Under the pieces are notes generated by a model, which did no database searches, was not told where the DNA came from, and worked only from the letters and a program-made list of their open reading frames with translations. Source: Anaeromyxobacter sp. Fw109-5 (lineage in GTDB: Bacteria > Myxococcota > Myxococcia > Myxococcales > Anaeromyxobacteraceae). From it: 64,000 nucleotides of DNA. Below are positions 34,184 to 57,575 of the stretch, piece after piece. The stretch covers positions 868,001 to 932,000 of the forward strand of contig NC_009675.1 of the NCBI RefSeq assembly GCF_000017505.1, read 5' to 3'. The position numbers and the translations under genes were made by a program. The first letter of the stretch is position 1. Each line of letters begins with the position of its first letter.

Positions 34184-34810
34184 ACAGTCGCGCCCCTCGA
34201 CTTCGCGCCCGCTGCGCGGCCGCTACGCCCGGGGTGAGCGGACGTCCCGGGACCCGCCGGGCAAGTACGTGAGCGCGGGTGCAGCCGCAGCCGGAAAGCG
34301 AGTCCCCGCACCAGGGTTCACTGCGGGAGGGGAAAGCCCTCATCATCCATCACAAGTCGGCGACGGCTCTGCCCGGAAACGGCCGTATCCGCCAGGCGGG
34401 CGGTCCCGAGGCTGGCTCGAGACGAGGGGGACCGGCCGAAGCGCTACCGAGGACCGGAACCGTCGCCGCGCGATCGGCTAACAAGAAACCCGAGGGCGAG
34501 ACGCGGCACGGGCGTGCTTGGAGGAGCGGAACTCCGAGGAGCCAGGCCATTTCACTGCACGTGAGCCAGGGCGCTTCCGGCCATGGCCAGAGCAACCCAT
34601 TTGCCCGACGGTAACCGTTGACACGGTTGTCTCGCAGCTCGCTTTCCGCGGCGCGAGCAGCCCGAGAACGCGTGCCTCGCAGCGTTCGCGGGCCACCCGG
34701 GGGCGCCGGAGCTGCGCGGGAGGGGGCGCGGCACCCCTGGTCATCGGTCGCGCCTCGCGCCGTTCTCGTGCGCCTGGGGACGACCGAAAATTGCGTGAGA
34801 CACTGCGTGC
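34184..34810. other. gene-free region containing the 5' end of the HNH relic
   Basis: 34184-34338 shows no gene. From ~34339 the sequence is homologous to the terminal and leader region of the HNH element at 53.9-55.7 kb. It contains the terminal-repeat copy and a 150-bp leader identical in both copies, with TTGACA at 34618-34623. Confidence 0.7.
34339..34520 (+). repeat. HNH-element terminal repeat, copy A
   Basis: Begins TCATCATCCATCACAAGTCGG and includes GGCTGGCTCGAGACGAGGGG and GCGCGATCGGCTAACAAGAA. It matches copies B (53878-54068) and C (55525-55701, inverted). Confidence 0.75.
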
Positions 34811-35313
34811 ATGTCCACCGCACGTGAGCTCACGAACCACCTCGTGCGCCTGCTCCGCGAGGAGCAGGGCGCGATGGCCGACTTCCTCCTCGCCCTCGCC
34901 GACTTCGATCGGAAGAAGCTGTGGCGCGAGCTCGGCCATACCTCGCTCTTCTACTACCTCCACCGCGAGCTCAGGCTCTCGAAGGGCGCCGCCCAGAACC
35001 GCGAGACCGCGGCCGAGCTCATCCAGGCGTTCCCCGAAGTGGAGGCGGCGCTGCGCGCGGGCGAGCTCTGTTTATCCACCGTGAACGAGCTCGCGAAGGT
35101 GCTCACCCCCGAGAACCGCGCGGAGGTGCTGCCCCTTCTTCGGCCTCTCGCGCCGCGAGGCGGAGGCGGTCGCCGTGTCTCTCCGGCCGGCCGAGGCGGT
35201 GCCCACCCGCGACGTCATCACCGCGTTCCGGCCGGCCGCCATCGTAGCGGCCACGGTCCAGGCCGCGCTCCTGGCACCCTCACCCGAGTCGCCGGCGCTT
35301 CGAGTTCACCCGG
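34811..35313 (+). pseudogene. truncated, frameshifted HNH-endonuclease gene
   Basis: The first ~108 codons are nearly identical to the intact gene at 54159-55226 (MSTARELTNHLVRLLREE). Two bases (GG) are missing between 35135 and 35136 in the string coding for LPRFFGLSRRE, shifting the frame. DNA homology continues out of frame to ACCCGG at 35313, then stops, so the HNH domain is absent. A 333-codon reading frame runs on into unrelated DNA but is not a real protein. Confidence 0.85.
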
Positions 35314-53130: not shown

Positions 53131-53700
53131 ATGGCTCGCATCGCCTTCATCGTGGACGACATGTTCGAGGATTCGGAGCTCCGCGTGCCGTACGACCGGC
53201 TCCGCGACGCCGGGCACGAGGTGATCGTCGTCGGACTGGAGCAGGGCAAGCGGATCGAGGGCAAGCAGAAGAAGGAGAAGCTGACCGTCGAGCGTGCGGC
53301 GAAGGACGTCCGGGCCCAGGAGCTGGACGCCCTCGTCATCCCGGGCGGCTACTCGCCCGACCACCTGCGGACGAGCATCGACATGGTGCGGCTCACGCGG
53401 GACATGTTCGTCGCGGGCAAGCCCGTCGCCGCCGTGTGCCACGGCCCCTGGATGCTCGTGGAGGCCGACGCGATCGACGGGCGCACGGTCACCTCCTGGC
53501 CGTCGCTCAAGACCGACCTCATCAACGCCGGCGCGCGCTGGGTCGATCGGGAGGTGGTCGAGGACGGGAACCTCATCACCTCGCGCAACCCCGGCGACCT
53601 GGCCGCCTTCTCCAGCGCGATCCTCCGCCAGCTCGAGCGCGCCGCGGAGGCCCACCGCGCGGGCGGAGAGCCACGAGGCGACACGCCGACCATGCATTGA
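53131..53700 (+). CDS. DJ-1/PfpI family protein
   Basis: 189 residues. IAFIVDDMFEDSELRVPYDRLRDAGHEV, LDALVIPGGYSPDHLR and the nucleophile elbow AVCHGPWMLVEA (catalytic Cys-His) are diagnostic. Members act as deglycases, proteases or stress chaperones. Followed by a hairpin (53768-53789), then the mobile element. Confidence 0.93.
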   Translation: MARIAFIVDDMFEDSELRVPYDRLRDAGHEVIVVGLEQGKRIEGKQKKEKLTVERAAKDVRAQELDALVIPGGYSPDHLRTSIDMVRLTRDMFVAGKPVAAVCHGPWMLVEADAIDGRTVTSWPSLKTDLINAGARWVDREVVEDGNLITSRNPGDLAAFSSAILRQLERAAEAHRAGGEPRGDTPTMH

Positions 53701-53767
53701 CCGCCGCGGCGCACCGGCATCGCGCGCTCGCCCCCTCGCGAGGCGCACGAGCCCGTCCCTCGACTCC

Positions 53768-53789
53768 GGTCCCGCGCGAGCGCGGGACC
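53768..53789 (+). terminator. hairpin after the PfpI gene
   Basis: 9-bp stem GGTCCCGCG/CGCGGGACC with a CGAG loop, nested within an outer CGTCCC/GGGACG pair (53754-53802). Confidence 0.5.
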
Positions 53790-53863
53790 TACGCTCGGGA
53801 CGAACGGGCCCGAGGCGGGAAGCGCAGCGAGGAGTAGCGAGGCGTACTGCTTCCGTCGGTCGG

Positions 53864-53877
53864 GGTCGCGGTCGGGG
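53864..53877 (+). repeat. 14-bp direct repeat, left flank of HNH element
   Basis: GGTCGCGGTCGGGG, identical to 55702-55715. The two copies abut the element's outer ends, as a target-site duplication would. Confidence 0.6.
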
Positions 53878-54068
53878 TCTGATCATTCGTCAACAAGTCC
53901 GGCGGCCGGGTCCGCGGCGGCGGCCCGTCTCCGCCTCGTGCACGTCGCCGAAGGTTGGCTCGAGAGGAGGGGTCAGGACCGGACCGGACCGGCGCCGAAT
54001 ACCGGTACCGGTACGGCGCGATCGGCTCACCAGAAGCCCGTACGGGAGGCGGCGCACGGGCGTGCGCC
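53878..54068 (+). repeat. HNH-element terminal repeat, copy B (left)
   Basis: Contains GGTTGGCTCGAGAGGAGGGG and GGCGCGATCGGCTCACCAGA. It is inverted relative to copy C across the HNH gene. It is the most diverged of the three copies. Confidence 0.7.
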
Positions 54069-54158
54069 CGCAGCTCGCCATCCAGTCGCCCTCGAGCAGG
54101 CTGGTCACGCGGATGAGGCAGGAAGGCTACCGGGAGAAATGCGGGTTCTGCTCCGACG

Positions 54159-55226
54159 TCAACCGCCGACGCCGCAGTAGCGGTCCATCACCGCATCTCC
54201 AAAGATCTGCCGGGCGGAGAGCAGATTGTGGGGACGGCAGGCGAGCCGGACGTTGTCCATCGTGGACGCCCCGCCCAGCGCGAGGGGCTCGATGTGGTCG
54301 TACTCGAGCCGCCGCCGGCAGTCGCAGCGCTCGCCGGATTCGAACCGCCACTCGCACTGCCCCCCGGCCCGGCGCCACACCTCCCGCTTCACCTCGGCAG
54401 GGATCGTGTCGCGGCGGGACCCTCGGCGGCTCTTCCGAGGCTTCTCGACGAGACCGCGGCGCTTCGCGTGCTGGGCGAGGATGAGGTCGAGGCCGCGCTC
54501 GAGGATCTCCGCCGCGCTGCCTCCCGGGCAGGCATGCCCGAGCGCGTCCGTGGCGGCCTCGAGCTTCTCGAGGAAGCGGCGGGAGACGGTGACGTGCACG
54601 CGGGCGAGCTCGGCGTCGAGCCGCTCCACGGACTCGCGGGGTGGCGGCGAAGGCAGGGGTATGGGGGCAGCGACCACGACGGGAGAGGTTGGTTCATCCA
54701 GGTGAACCACGACTGGTTCATCCGGGTGAACTCGCAGCGCCGCCGACTCGGGCGAGGGTGCCAGGAGCACGGCCTGGGCCGTGGCCGCTACGATGGCGGC
54801 CGGCCGGAACGCGGTGATGACGTCGCGGGTGGGCACCACCTCGGCCGGCCGGAGAGACACGGCGACCGCCTCCGCCTCGCGGCGCGAGAGGCCGAAGAAC
54901 CGGGGCAGCACCTCCGCGCGGTTCTCGGGGGTGAGCACCTTCGCGAGCTCGTTCACGGTGGATAAACAGAGCTCGCCCGCGCGCAGCGCCGCCTCCACTT
55001 CGGGGAACGCCTGGATGAGCTCGGCCGCGGTCTTGCGGTTCTGGGCGGCGCCCTTCGAGAGCCTGAGCTCGCGGTAGAGGTAGTAGAAGAGCGAGGTATG
55101 GCCGAGCTCGCGCCACAGCTTCTTCCGATCGAAGTCGGCGAGGGCGAGGAGGACGTCGGCCATCGCGCCCTGCTCCTCTCGGAGCAGGCGCACGAGGTGG
55201 TTCGTGAGCTCGCGTGCGGTGGACAT
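54159..55226 (-). CDS. HNH endonuclease protein (13E12-repeat-like architecture)
   Basis: 355 residues. A helical N-terminal region (~1-150; MSTARELTNHLVRLLREEQ, LGHTSLFYYLYRELRLSKGAAQNR) leads through a Pro/Val linker and a short helix region (VTVSRRFLEKLEAATDALGHA) to a C-terminal HNH nuclease (~295-345): CEWRFESGERCDC, LEYDHIEPLALGG, NVRLACRPHN, with both zinc-site Cys pairs likely intact. The layout resembles DUF222/REP13E12 HNH proteins, which are also repeated in their genomes. It could cut DNA to help the element move. No SD before ATG 55226. Confidence 0.87.
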   Translation of the reverse strand: MSTARELTNHLVRLLREEQGAMADVLLALADFDRKKLWRELGHTSLFYYLYRELRLSKGAAQNRKTAAELIQAFPEVEAALRAGELCLSTVNELAKVLTPENRAEVLPRFFGLSRREAEAVAVSLRPAEVVPTRDVITAFRPAAIVAATAQAVLLAPSPESAALRVHPDEPVVVHLDEPTSPVVVAAPIPLPSPPPRESVERLDAELARVHVTVSRRFLEKLEAATDALGHACPGGSAAEILERGLDLILAQHAKRRGLVEKPRKSRRGSRRDTIPAEVKREVWRRAGGQCEWRFESGERCDCRRRLEYDHIEPLALGGASTMDNVRLACRPHNLLSARQIFGDAVMDRYCGVGG

Positions 55227-55268
55227 GCACGCAGTGTCTCATGCGAATTTCGGCCCTCCCCAAGCTCG

Positions 55269-55421
55269 CGAGAACGGCGCGAGGCGCGACCGATGACCAG
55301 GGGTGCCGCGCCCCCTCCCGCGCAGCTCCGGCGCCCCCGGGTGGCCCGCGAACGCTGCGAGGCACGCGTTCTCGGGCTGCTCGCGCCGCGGAAAGCGAGC
55401 TGCGAGACAACCGTGTCAACC
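55269..55421 (-). other. conserved noncoding leader of the HNH element
   Basis: About 150 bp upstream of the HNH gene that read identically in the relic (34616-34768), although flanking terminal repeats have diverged. Contains TTGACA and GC-rich pairing arms. May be a promoter/leader or a structured RNA. Confidence 0.5.
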
Positions 55422-55524
55422 GTTACCCGCGGGCAAACGGGTTGCTCTGGCGGTGAGAAGCGTCCAGATTCGCCCACGGTGAAATGACCTGGTCCTCATC
55501 CAGAGTTCCGCGCCAAGCCCCAAG

Positions 55525-55701
55525 CATGCCGGTGCCGCGTTCCGCCCCACGGGCTTCTTGTTAGCCGATCGCGCCGGGACGGTTCCGAGCCTCGGTAACG
55601 CTCCGACCGGCCCCCCTCGTCTCGAGCCAGCCTCGGGGCCAGCCCGCCCGCGGACACGGCCGTTCCCGGAAGAACCGTTGCCGACTTGTGATGAATGAAG
55701 A
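55525..55701 (-). repeat. HNH-element terminal repeat, copy C (right)
   Basis: On the minus strand begins TCTTCATTCATCACAAGTCGG and includes GGCTGGCTCGAGACGAGGGG and GGCGCGATCGGCTAACAAGA. Pairs with copy B; closest to copy A. Confidence 0.75.
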
Positions 55702-55715
55702 GGTCGCGGTCGGGG
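55702..55715 (+). repeat. 14-bp direct repeat, right flank of HNH element
   Basis: GGTCGCGGTCGGGG, identical to 53864-53877 and absent from the equivalent side of the relic, so it is not part of the element. Confidence 0.6.
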
Positions 55716-55763
55716 CCCCTCGACCACGCGTCTCCGCTGCGCGGGAGACGTACGCGCCGAGGC

Positions 55764-57575
55764 TCAGAACATGTCCGTTCGATAGTGGTACGCCGCCCTC
55801 TCCTGCCAGGTCTCGATGGCGCGGAAGGTGTCGCGCAGCCGGCTGCGCTCGAGCGACGACAGGTCGGCGATCGACACGACGTTCACCGGGGGCCTGCCCT
55901 CCGCGATCATCCGGAGCTGCTCGCGCAGGCGCAGCCGCAGGAGGAACCCGTACGCCTCGGTGAGCGTCTCGAGCGTGTCCTTGGCGATGAGCCCTGCGTC
56001 GAAGGCGGCGCGGATCCGGCCGAGCGTGTTCGAGGTGCGCGCCCCCGCCTCGAGGCCGTACACGCGCGCCAGGAACACGATCGAGCTGATGCCCTTGAGC
56101 TTCAGATCGACGGTGGACGTATCGCCGCGGATGCGGAGCACGAGCCCGCCCGGCGGGCGGAACGTGAGGGCGCTCTTCGCCATCGCCGAGAGGAACGTGC
56201 GCGCGCCGCCGGCGCGGGCGGCGAGGGCGTGGAGCGCCGAGACGTCGAGCTGGCCGTGGACCGGCCGGAAGTCGAAGAAGATCGAGGCCTCGAGGAGCGC
56301 GGTCGGGGTCGCCTTCTCGAGCCAGCCGTGGAAGCGCTCGCGCCACTCCTCGAGGGCCCCCTGCCAGCGGGTCGCCATGTAGCCGCCCGGGCAGCGCGGG
56401 AAGCCGGCCGCCTGCAGGTCGGCGATCGCGCGCTCCGCGAAGCGCGCGAAGTAGGCGCGCGCGGCCGGAGAGTCCTCGCCGTAGACGAGGGCGTTGTCCT
56501 GGTCCGTGAGGAGCGTCTGCTCCATCCGCCCCTCGGAGCCGAACGCCAGCCAGGAGTAGGGCGTGGGCGGCGGGCCGAGGTCGGCCTCCGCCAGGCGCAG
56601 GATGCGGGCGAGCAGGGAGTCGTTGAGGCGCGCGACGAAGCCGCCGATGACGATCGGGTCGAGCCCTCCCGCGAACAGCGCGGACGCCATCTCCGCGACG
56701 CGCGACCCGTACCCGGGGAGCGCGTCCCGGCTCGAGAGCCGCTCGACGCTGCGCATCACCGCCACCGGGCCGGCGGCGGTGAACCTGAGGAGATCGGTGG
56801 ACGACACCACGCCCACGATGTCGTCGCCGCGCGTCACCGGCAGGTGATGCACCCCCGCGTCGAGCAAGATCCGCCAGGCCTCGTACACCGGCGTCTCGGC
56901 GGGGACGGCTCGCGCAGGCGCGCTCGCCACCTCGAGCACCGGCGTCTCCGGCCCCCGGCCCGCGGCGAGGACTCGGCGCGCGAAGTCGCGGTCGGTGACG
57001 ATGCCGGGGGGCGTCGAGTCGACGATCGCCGAGCTCACGCAGCGCTCCGCCATGGTCCGCGCCGCCTCTCCGACGGTGGCCGAGGGCGGCACCCGCACCG
57101 GCGTCCTGCCGCGCAGCAGCGTCGCCACCGGGACCCCCAGGTCCGGCTGGAAGCTCGCCACCTGCGAATGCTCGAGGCTGTTGCGGAGCCGCTCCGCGAG
57201 GCCCGAGGCGAAGTGCCCCGCGAACGCGGCGTGCGCCAGGAGCGCCTCGAACTCGGGCCTGGGGAGCCGGTACGCCAGGAGGTCCTCCTCGACCGTCACG
57301 TCGAGGGTCGCCTCGCCGGAGATGAGCGAGGTGAAGCCGAAGATCTCGCCCTCCTCCAGCAGCTGCACGGTCTGGCCTTCGCGCTCGAGGCGCACCGCGC
57401 CCTTGCGGATCACGAACAGGTGGCGGGAAGGCTCGCCGCCGCGGGACAGCAGCCGCGTGCCGGCCGGGTGGAAGACGATCTCGATGGCGTGCGCGGCGGC
57501 GTCGAAGACGGGCTGCGGGAGCCCGTCGAACGGCGGGGTGGACCGCACGAACGCCACCGGATCCAGAGCGACCAT
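55764..57575 (-). CDS. cNMP-binding / CBS / DUF294 nucleotidyltransferase-like signalling protein
   Basis: 603 residues. Order: cyclic-nucleotide-binding domain (~15-130; HLFVIRKGAVRLEREG, EIFGFTSLISGEATLDVTV), two CBS domains (~150-270; GIVTDRDFARRVL, GVVSSTDLLRF), a DUF294 nucleotidyltransferase core (~330-420; WLAFGSEGRMEQTLLTDQDNALVY) and its C-terminal domain. Relatives may uridylylate or otherwise modify a partner in response to nucleotides. ATG 57575 lacks an SD; TATCCT ends 7 nt upstream. Confidence 0.9.
   Translation of the reverse strand: MVALDPVAFVRSTPPFDGLPQPVFDAAAHAIEIVFHPAGTRLLSRGGEPSRHLFVIRKGAVRLEREGQTVQLLEEGEIFGFTSLISGEATLDVTVEEDLLAYRLPRPEFEALLAHAAFAGHFASGLAERLRNSLEHSQVASFQPDLGVPVATLLRGRTPVRVPPSATVGEAARTMAERCVSSAIVDSTPPGIVTDRDFARRVLAAGRGPETPVLEVASAPARAVPAETPVYEAWRILLDAGVHHLPVTRGDDIVGVVSSTDLLRFTAAGPVAVMRSVERLSSRDALPGYGSRVAEMASALFAGGLDPIVIGGFVARLNDSLLARILRLAEADLGPPPTPYSWLAFGSEGRMEQTLLTDQDNALVYGEDSPAARAYFARFAERAIADLQAAGFPRCPGGYMATRWQGALEEWRERFHGWLEKATPTALLEASIFFDFRPVHGQLDVSALHALAARAGGARTFLSAMAKSALTFRPPGGLVLRIRGDTSTVDLKLKGISSIVFLARVYGLEAGARTSNTLGRIRAAFDAGLIAKDTLETLTEAYGFLLRLRLREQLRMIAEGRPPVNVVSIADLSSLERSRLRDTFRAIETWQERAAYHYRTDMF

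Follow-up and report, generated by a model that had tools for sequence, protein, structure and literature searches.

An insertion-sequence-like family of HNH elements with inverted ends and 9-bp target duplications in Anaeromyxobacter

In a 64,000-nt stretch of the Anaeromyxobacter sp. Fw109-5 genome (contig NC_009675.1, positions 868,001 to 932,000; hereafter the window, whose numbering is used below unless another sequence is named) a single gene for an HNH protein is enclosed by inverted repeats. This arrangement raises the question whether the gene and its surroundings form a mobile unit and, if so, which enzyme moves it. To our knowledge, DUF222/HNH '13E12' genes, which are repeated in many bacterial genomes, have no known way of moving.

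Alignment with its relatives places the boundaries of the focal element at 53879 (CTGATCATTC) and 55702 (GAATGAAGAG). The BLAST boundaries of other genome copies match these outer ends, and since the homology of the other family-A copies begins and stops at identical points, the element is fixed as 53879–55702 (1,824 bp, minus strand). Its terminal inverted repeats are CTGATCATTCGTCAAC at the ORF-downstream end (53879–53894, plus strand), as judged from alignment with the ends of 12 other elements and from motif counts, and CTCTTCATTCATCACA at the ORF-upstream end (55687–55702, minus strand), as judged from the end alignment and a motif match at genome positions 923687–923696. Imperfect subterminal inverted repeats of ~180 bp (arm 1, 53883–54065, plus strand; arm 2, 55524–55698, minus strand) surround the single HNH ORF (54159–55226, minus strand, 355 aa). 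The two arms had already been noticed in a reading of the sequence alone and they withstood our controls: their inverted alignment has a local score of 77, while none of 2,000 dinucleotide shuffles scored above 34 and randomly paired segments of the window reached 48 at best. A conserved 19-bp subterminal box, GATCGGCYNNCAAGAAGCC, is a candidate protein-binding site and occurs at 54020–54038 (plus strand, 1 mismatch) and, inverted, at the opposite end of the element (55552–55570, minus strand). An Rfam search of positions 53500–56000 found no RNA family, and no match to HEARO/omega RNA even at E 5. Outside the element, a ~120-bp dispersed intergenic repeat, of which AAGCGCAGCGAGGAGTAGCGAGGCGTACTGCTTCC is a part, adjoins the insertion site (53735–53857, plus strand); it is also present at Fw109-5 428088–428198 and at locus L045 (1382–1496), and it borders element ends at two loci.

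The protein encoded by the focal ORF matches the Pfam HNH domain in its C-terminal part (PF01844, 3.8e-5, above cutoff). Nothing else in Pfam exceeded the cutoff, neither RuvC nor a direct DUF222 match, which agrees with the sequence-only reading that a transposase or RuvC-like domain is absent. A 52% identical homolog from a congener (L099, genome G002) matches DUF222 (PF02720, 1.5e-6, above cutoff), which makes DUF222-HNH (13E12) the probable type of the focal protein. The predicted architecture comprises a ParB/KorB-like N-terminus (residues 1–127), a disordered linker and a C-terminal HNH domain (271–348); AlphaFold, run with 30 relatives, modelled the helical domain (1–125) and the HNH domain with confidence and the linker between them as disordered. 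By comparing the N-terminal domain of the model to the DNA-binding domains of ParB, Spo0J, KorB and Noc (VIA) we obtained a best Z of 9.2 (Spo0J) with an rmsd of 2.8 over 112 residues, while the C-terminal domain resembles the HNH domains of McrA, the Gme HNH nickase and IscB. As a Foldseek search of the whole model against the PDB gave no match at E below 0.001, the ParB-like N-terminal fold is only a lead, and helical domains can reach a Z of about 9 by chance. Residues H311, H333 and N334 and the Cys residues are invariant in 30 proteins, and the ORFs of the elements are mostly intact. Among recent within-genome paralogs dN/dS ranges from 0.27 to 0.57 (Nei–Gojobori counting, with GC bias not modelled); judged by these substitution counts, the HNH ORF is under purifying selection.

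Searching the Fw109-5 genome, a single contig of 5,277,990 bp, we found 42 tblastn matches to the focal HNH protein. The family of the focal element (family A) has one complete second copy at genome positions 3348257–3350083 with 88% DNA identity. Its other copies are a truncated one within the window (34338–35313, plus strand, in the orientation opposite to the focal copy and 92% identical to its ORF-upstream half), a rearranged one (genome 507856–508942), a deleted one (genome 4086965–4087683) and solo ends. The sister family B, with ~38% protein identity to family A, has about 25 copies, at least 13 of which are 90–94% identical over 1.9 kb with sharp ends. In total the 5.3-Mb genome holds about 30 copies of HNH elements. 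The most similar copies are only about 96% identical and no near-identical pair exists, so that the copies give no sign of current activity.

Families A and B share the same end core, ATTCRTCACA. Five of the nine congeneric genomes that we searched contain this motif (48 matches in Fw109-5, 26 in A. oryzae, 18 in A. soli, 14 in A. terrae and 9 in A. oryzisoli), the reversed pattern gave 0 matches in all nine, nearly every site is the end of an HNH element, and no site lies beside a transposase gene. A longer end consensus, CTCATGATTCATCACA / CTGACGATTCATCACA, is common to the HNH elements of A. oryzae, A. oryzisoli, A. soli and A. terrae, and allowing up to 3 mismatches to the 16-bp end we counted 40 sites in A. 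oryzae (control 0). The 19-bp box lies in inverted orientation ~135 bp inside each end in the elements of A. oryzae and A. oryzisoli and in family A of Fw109-5 (42, 22 and 8 copies, respectively; control 0). The suggested mobile element that carries only an HNH gene between terminal inverted repeats is thereby borne out by a multi-copy family with same-ended copies in five species, and the existence of such copies both in the genome and in its relatives favours mobility. ATTCRTCACA is absent from the A. dehalogenans group, from PSR-1 and from Myxococcales farther removed, where the paralogs share mainly the ORF region. Among the A. dehalogenans-type genomes, G001 and G002 carry HNH paralogs (L086–L106) with a dN/dS of 0.27 and without ATTCRTCACA ends, some of which are preceded by a GCTCGTGGTGAGCTTGTCGAACC-like repeat in tandem copies.

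Next to the focal element, exact copies of the 14-mer GGTCGCGGTCGGGG are found at 53864–53877 and 55702–55715, and these had been proposed to be its flanking duplication. The 14-mer, however, has 219 copies in the Fw109-5 genome, in the context of GGTCGN hexamer arrays (reversed control 0–1), so its presence on both flanks says little. We therefore rejected its reading as a target-site duplication, since the 14-mer belongs to the genome-wide arrays (left flank 53858–53878, right flank 55703–55715, both plus strand) and is thus target sequence, which cannot be counted as a duplication. At the focal copy, the array in which it lies prevents any duplication from being read. GGTCGN arrays also occur without any element, for instance at genome positions 1074846, 1992793, 2332799 and 2497060; several of these adjoin REP-like palindromes (CCCTCGACTCCGC...ACGCTCGGGATGA), and such arrays hardly occur at the HNH loci that we examined in the relatives.

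Nearly all family-B copies in Fw109-5 are flanked on both sides by such arrays in one orientation relative to their ends. This constancy would fit homing, in which cleavage of GGTCGN arrays or hairpin repeats by the HNH endonuclease is followed by recombinational repair that copies the element in, with the arrays as homology. The uninformative 14-bp flank would in turn suit a dispersed gene family that does not move at all and has chance or repeat-derived flanks, and the HNH paralogs without such ends in some relatives (A. dehalogenans group) fit this picture as well. Elements outside the arrays speak against both explanations. At the junctions of 30 such elements, 9-bp direct repeats agree in at least 8 of 9 positions in 22 cases and in all 9 positions in 18, whereas 20,000 trials in which left flanks were paired with right flanks at random never exceeded 11 of 30. 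GGCGCAGCC (or its complement), which forms the centre of a GGGGCGCAGCCCC hairpin, is the 9-mer most often duplicated; other duplicated sequences are GC-rich and often palindromic (GCCGCAGGC, CCCGGTGGG and GCCTGTAAGGC). In Fw109-5 itself the family-A copy at 3348257, which lies outside the arrays, has CCGCGAGGG/CCTCGAGGG at its junctions. From these alignments the target-site duplication of the family is read as 9 bp, visible only in copies outside arrays and mostly in other species. Homing leaves no duplications, yet they are constant in length outside arrays, in four other species and at non-homologous sites, and the flanks of many copies are unrelated; we thus consider homing improbable.

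Comparison of orthologous sites provided further evidence. In A. terrae a spacer of about 45 bp separates the genes that flank the focal site, and it contains no element and no array; this element-free relative is also without both 14-mers, which favours mobility. An A. oryzae element with the duplication AGGGTTCGGC is missing in A. oryzisoli, two A. dehalogenans-group genomes and PSR-1, and the empty spacers are collinear with the A. oryzae flanks minus one copy of the duplication, with matching length, although divergence of the spacers prevents a letter-by-letter reading of the single target copy. Seen through this comparison of genomes, the family is mobile and moves with a 9-bp duplication. 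A non-mobile gene family is contradicted by the sharp boundaries, the inverted ends, the 9-bp duplications and the empty sites, and we regard it as scarcely credible. Two spacers drew our attention for a different reason. In A. soli the spacer of the focal site is occupied by a divergent HNH element (L139, C2:29490–30830) that follows the same dispersed repeat as the focal one, and this spacer has apparently been hit on two occasions. Similarly, a family-B-like HNH element at Fw109-5 2942826–2944625 occupies a site orthologous to that of the A. oryzae element 5885183–5886995, a spacer thus hit in two species.

Which enzyme moves the family can be approached by asking what else carries its ends. 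All elements with paired ends that we inspected encode an HNH protein, and neither the focal element nor any same-ended element examined in five genomes contains a transposase. Unpaired motif sites proved to be solo ends, HNH remnants or sites within coding sequence, and the same was found on following up the A. oryzae 16-bp-end sites beyond the known HNH elements, none of which had a transposase partner. This motif search for ends covered nine genomes and is blind to a transposase gene without such ends. Amplified deletion derivatives were not seen: three shortened A. oryzae elements have breakpoints that all differ and hence look decayed rather than like a spreading short form.

The sequence-only reading had left a choice between movement by the HNH protein and mobilisation of a passenger in trans. 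In the latter case a classical transposase (e.g. DDE) encoded elsewhere would act on the ends, and the HNH gene would serve as a nuclease, in regulation or as an aid to spread. Inverted ends and 9-bp duplications are typical of DDE transposases, and REP/RAYT systems offer a precedent in which ends and transposase can be separate. On the other hand, no same-ended element bearing a transposase was found in the five genomes, nearly all copies retain a full-length or near full-length HNH ORF with deletion derivatives occurring as singletons, and the ORF appears to be under purifying selection among recent copies. We consider the passenger explanation the less likely of the two, though clearly more plausible than homing. 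The lack of same-ended non-HNH elements, the lack of amplified derivatives and the purifying selection together favour an HNH protein acting on its own element, and we assign a probability of about 0.6 to the reading that the elements form a new family of insertion-sequence type and are transposed by their own DUF222/13E12-type HNH protein.

For this reading we infer the HNH protein to be the catalyst, together with its place of binding and the joining of the ends. The ParB/KorB-like N-terminal domain would bind at the inverted termini, at the subterminal GATCGGC...AAGAAGCC boxes or at both. Cuts at the element ends would come from the HNH domain, which would also open a GC-rich palindrome or, in Fw109-5, the GGTCGN arrays with a 9-bp stagger; the element would be joined at the staggered break, and gap filling would leave the 9-bp duplication. 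We know of no HNH enzyme that carries out strand transfer. As HNH nucleases hydrolyse DNA, joining would need host enzymes or new chemistry. A wider proposal, which could equally well turn out right or wrong, is a transposase class that combines an HNH (beta-beta-alpha-metal) nuclease with a ParB-like DNA-binding domain, separate from the DDE, HUH, serine, tyrosine and Cas1 enzymes; it may also explain the spread of 13E12-type HNH repeats in other bacteria.

In comparison to known systems, the elements resemble DDE insertion sequences (ISfinder families) in their size of about 1.5–2.1 kb, single ORF, inverted ends, 9-bp duplication and intergenic palindromic targets. A target of the last kind is also used by IS1397, which inserts in REP. 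Unlike DDE insertion sequences, they lack a DDE, HUH, serine or tyrosine transposase domain, and HNH is their only nuclease domain. Measured by the usual features of an insertion sequence, we thus found terminal inverted repeats, a duplication of constant length and multiple copies with empty sites, but no transposase of a known class. IscB of the IS200/IS605 group shares the HNH domain similarity and the mobile context, and an IscB model matched the focal protein weakly and in the HNH part only. The focal protein differs from IscB by having no RuvC domain, and its locus matches no omega-RNA family; furthermore, the ends of the HNH elements are inverted repeats with a target duplication, while IS200/IS605 elements have neither. 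Free-standing HNH homing endonuclease genes are likewise selfish HNH genes without a transposase, but the elements described here have target duplications and conserved terminal repeats and are not inserted by homology. REP13E12/13E12 of mycobacteria is similar in its C-terminal HNH domain and probably its DUF222-type N-terminus, in its genomic repetition and in the absence of a transposase. For the Anaeromyxobacter elements, the present analysis demonstrates inverted ends, 9-bp duplications, a target preference and sites empty in relatives. REP13E12/DUF222 repeats have been flagged as a repetitive element near mobile elements (PMC10589994). In the literature we searched, mostly outside subscription papers and preprints, no HNH-only transposon was found.

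Taken on its features, the element is insertion-sequence-like with a 13E12-type protein; should its HNH protein prove to be the transposase, it would belong to a categorically new kind. With the ends, the 9-bp duplication and the targets of the family now defined, this question becomes directly testable: a positive answer would add a new catalytic class to DNA transposition, a negative one would point to an unseen transposase acting in trans. In expert annotation Fw109-5 has 16 insertion sequences of 12 kinds (PMC3129680, Table 1), fewer than the HNH copies and thus too few to include them. A sizeable mobile family, with about 30 copies in one genome, can therefore escape annotation that is based on transposases.

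The GGTCGN arrays of Fw109-5 also enclose other sequences. Two ~1.2-kb units at 1810195–1811765 (L145) and 1861904–1863762 (L146) lie between such arrays and are nearly identical in sequence by eye. Each contains two ORFs whose products belong to the 23S rRNA-intervening-sequence protein family (PF05635; L146 was the unit tested), and the units are possibly another element with the GGTCGN array as its target.
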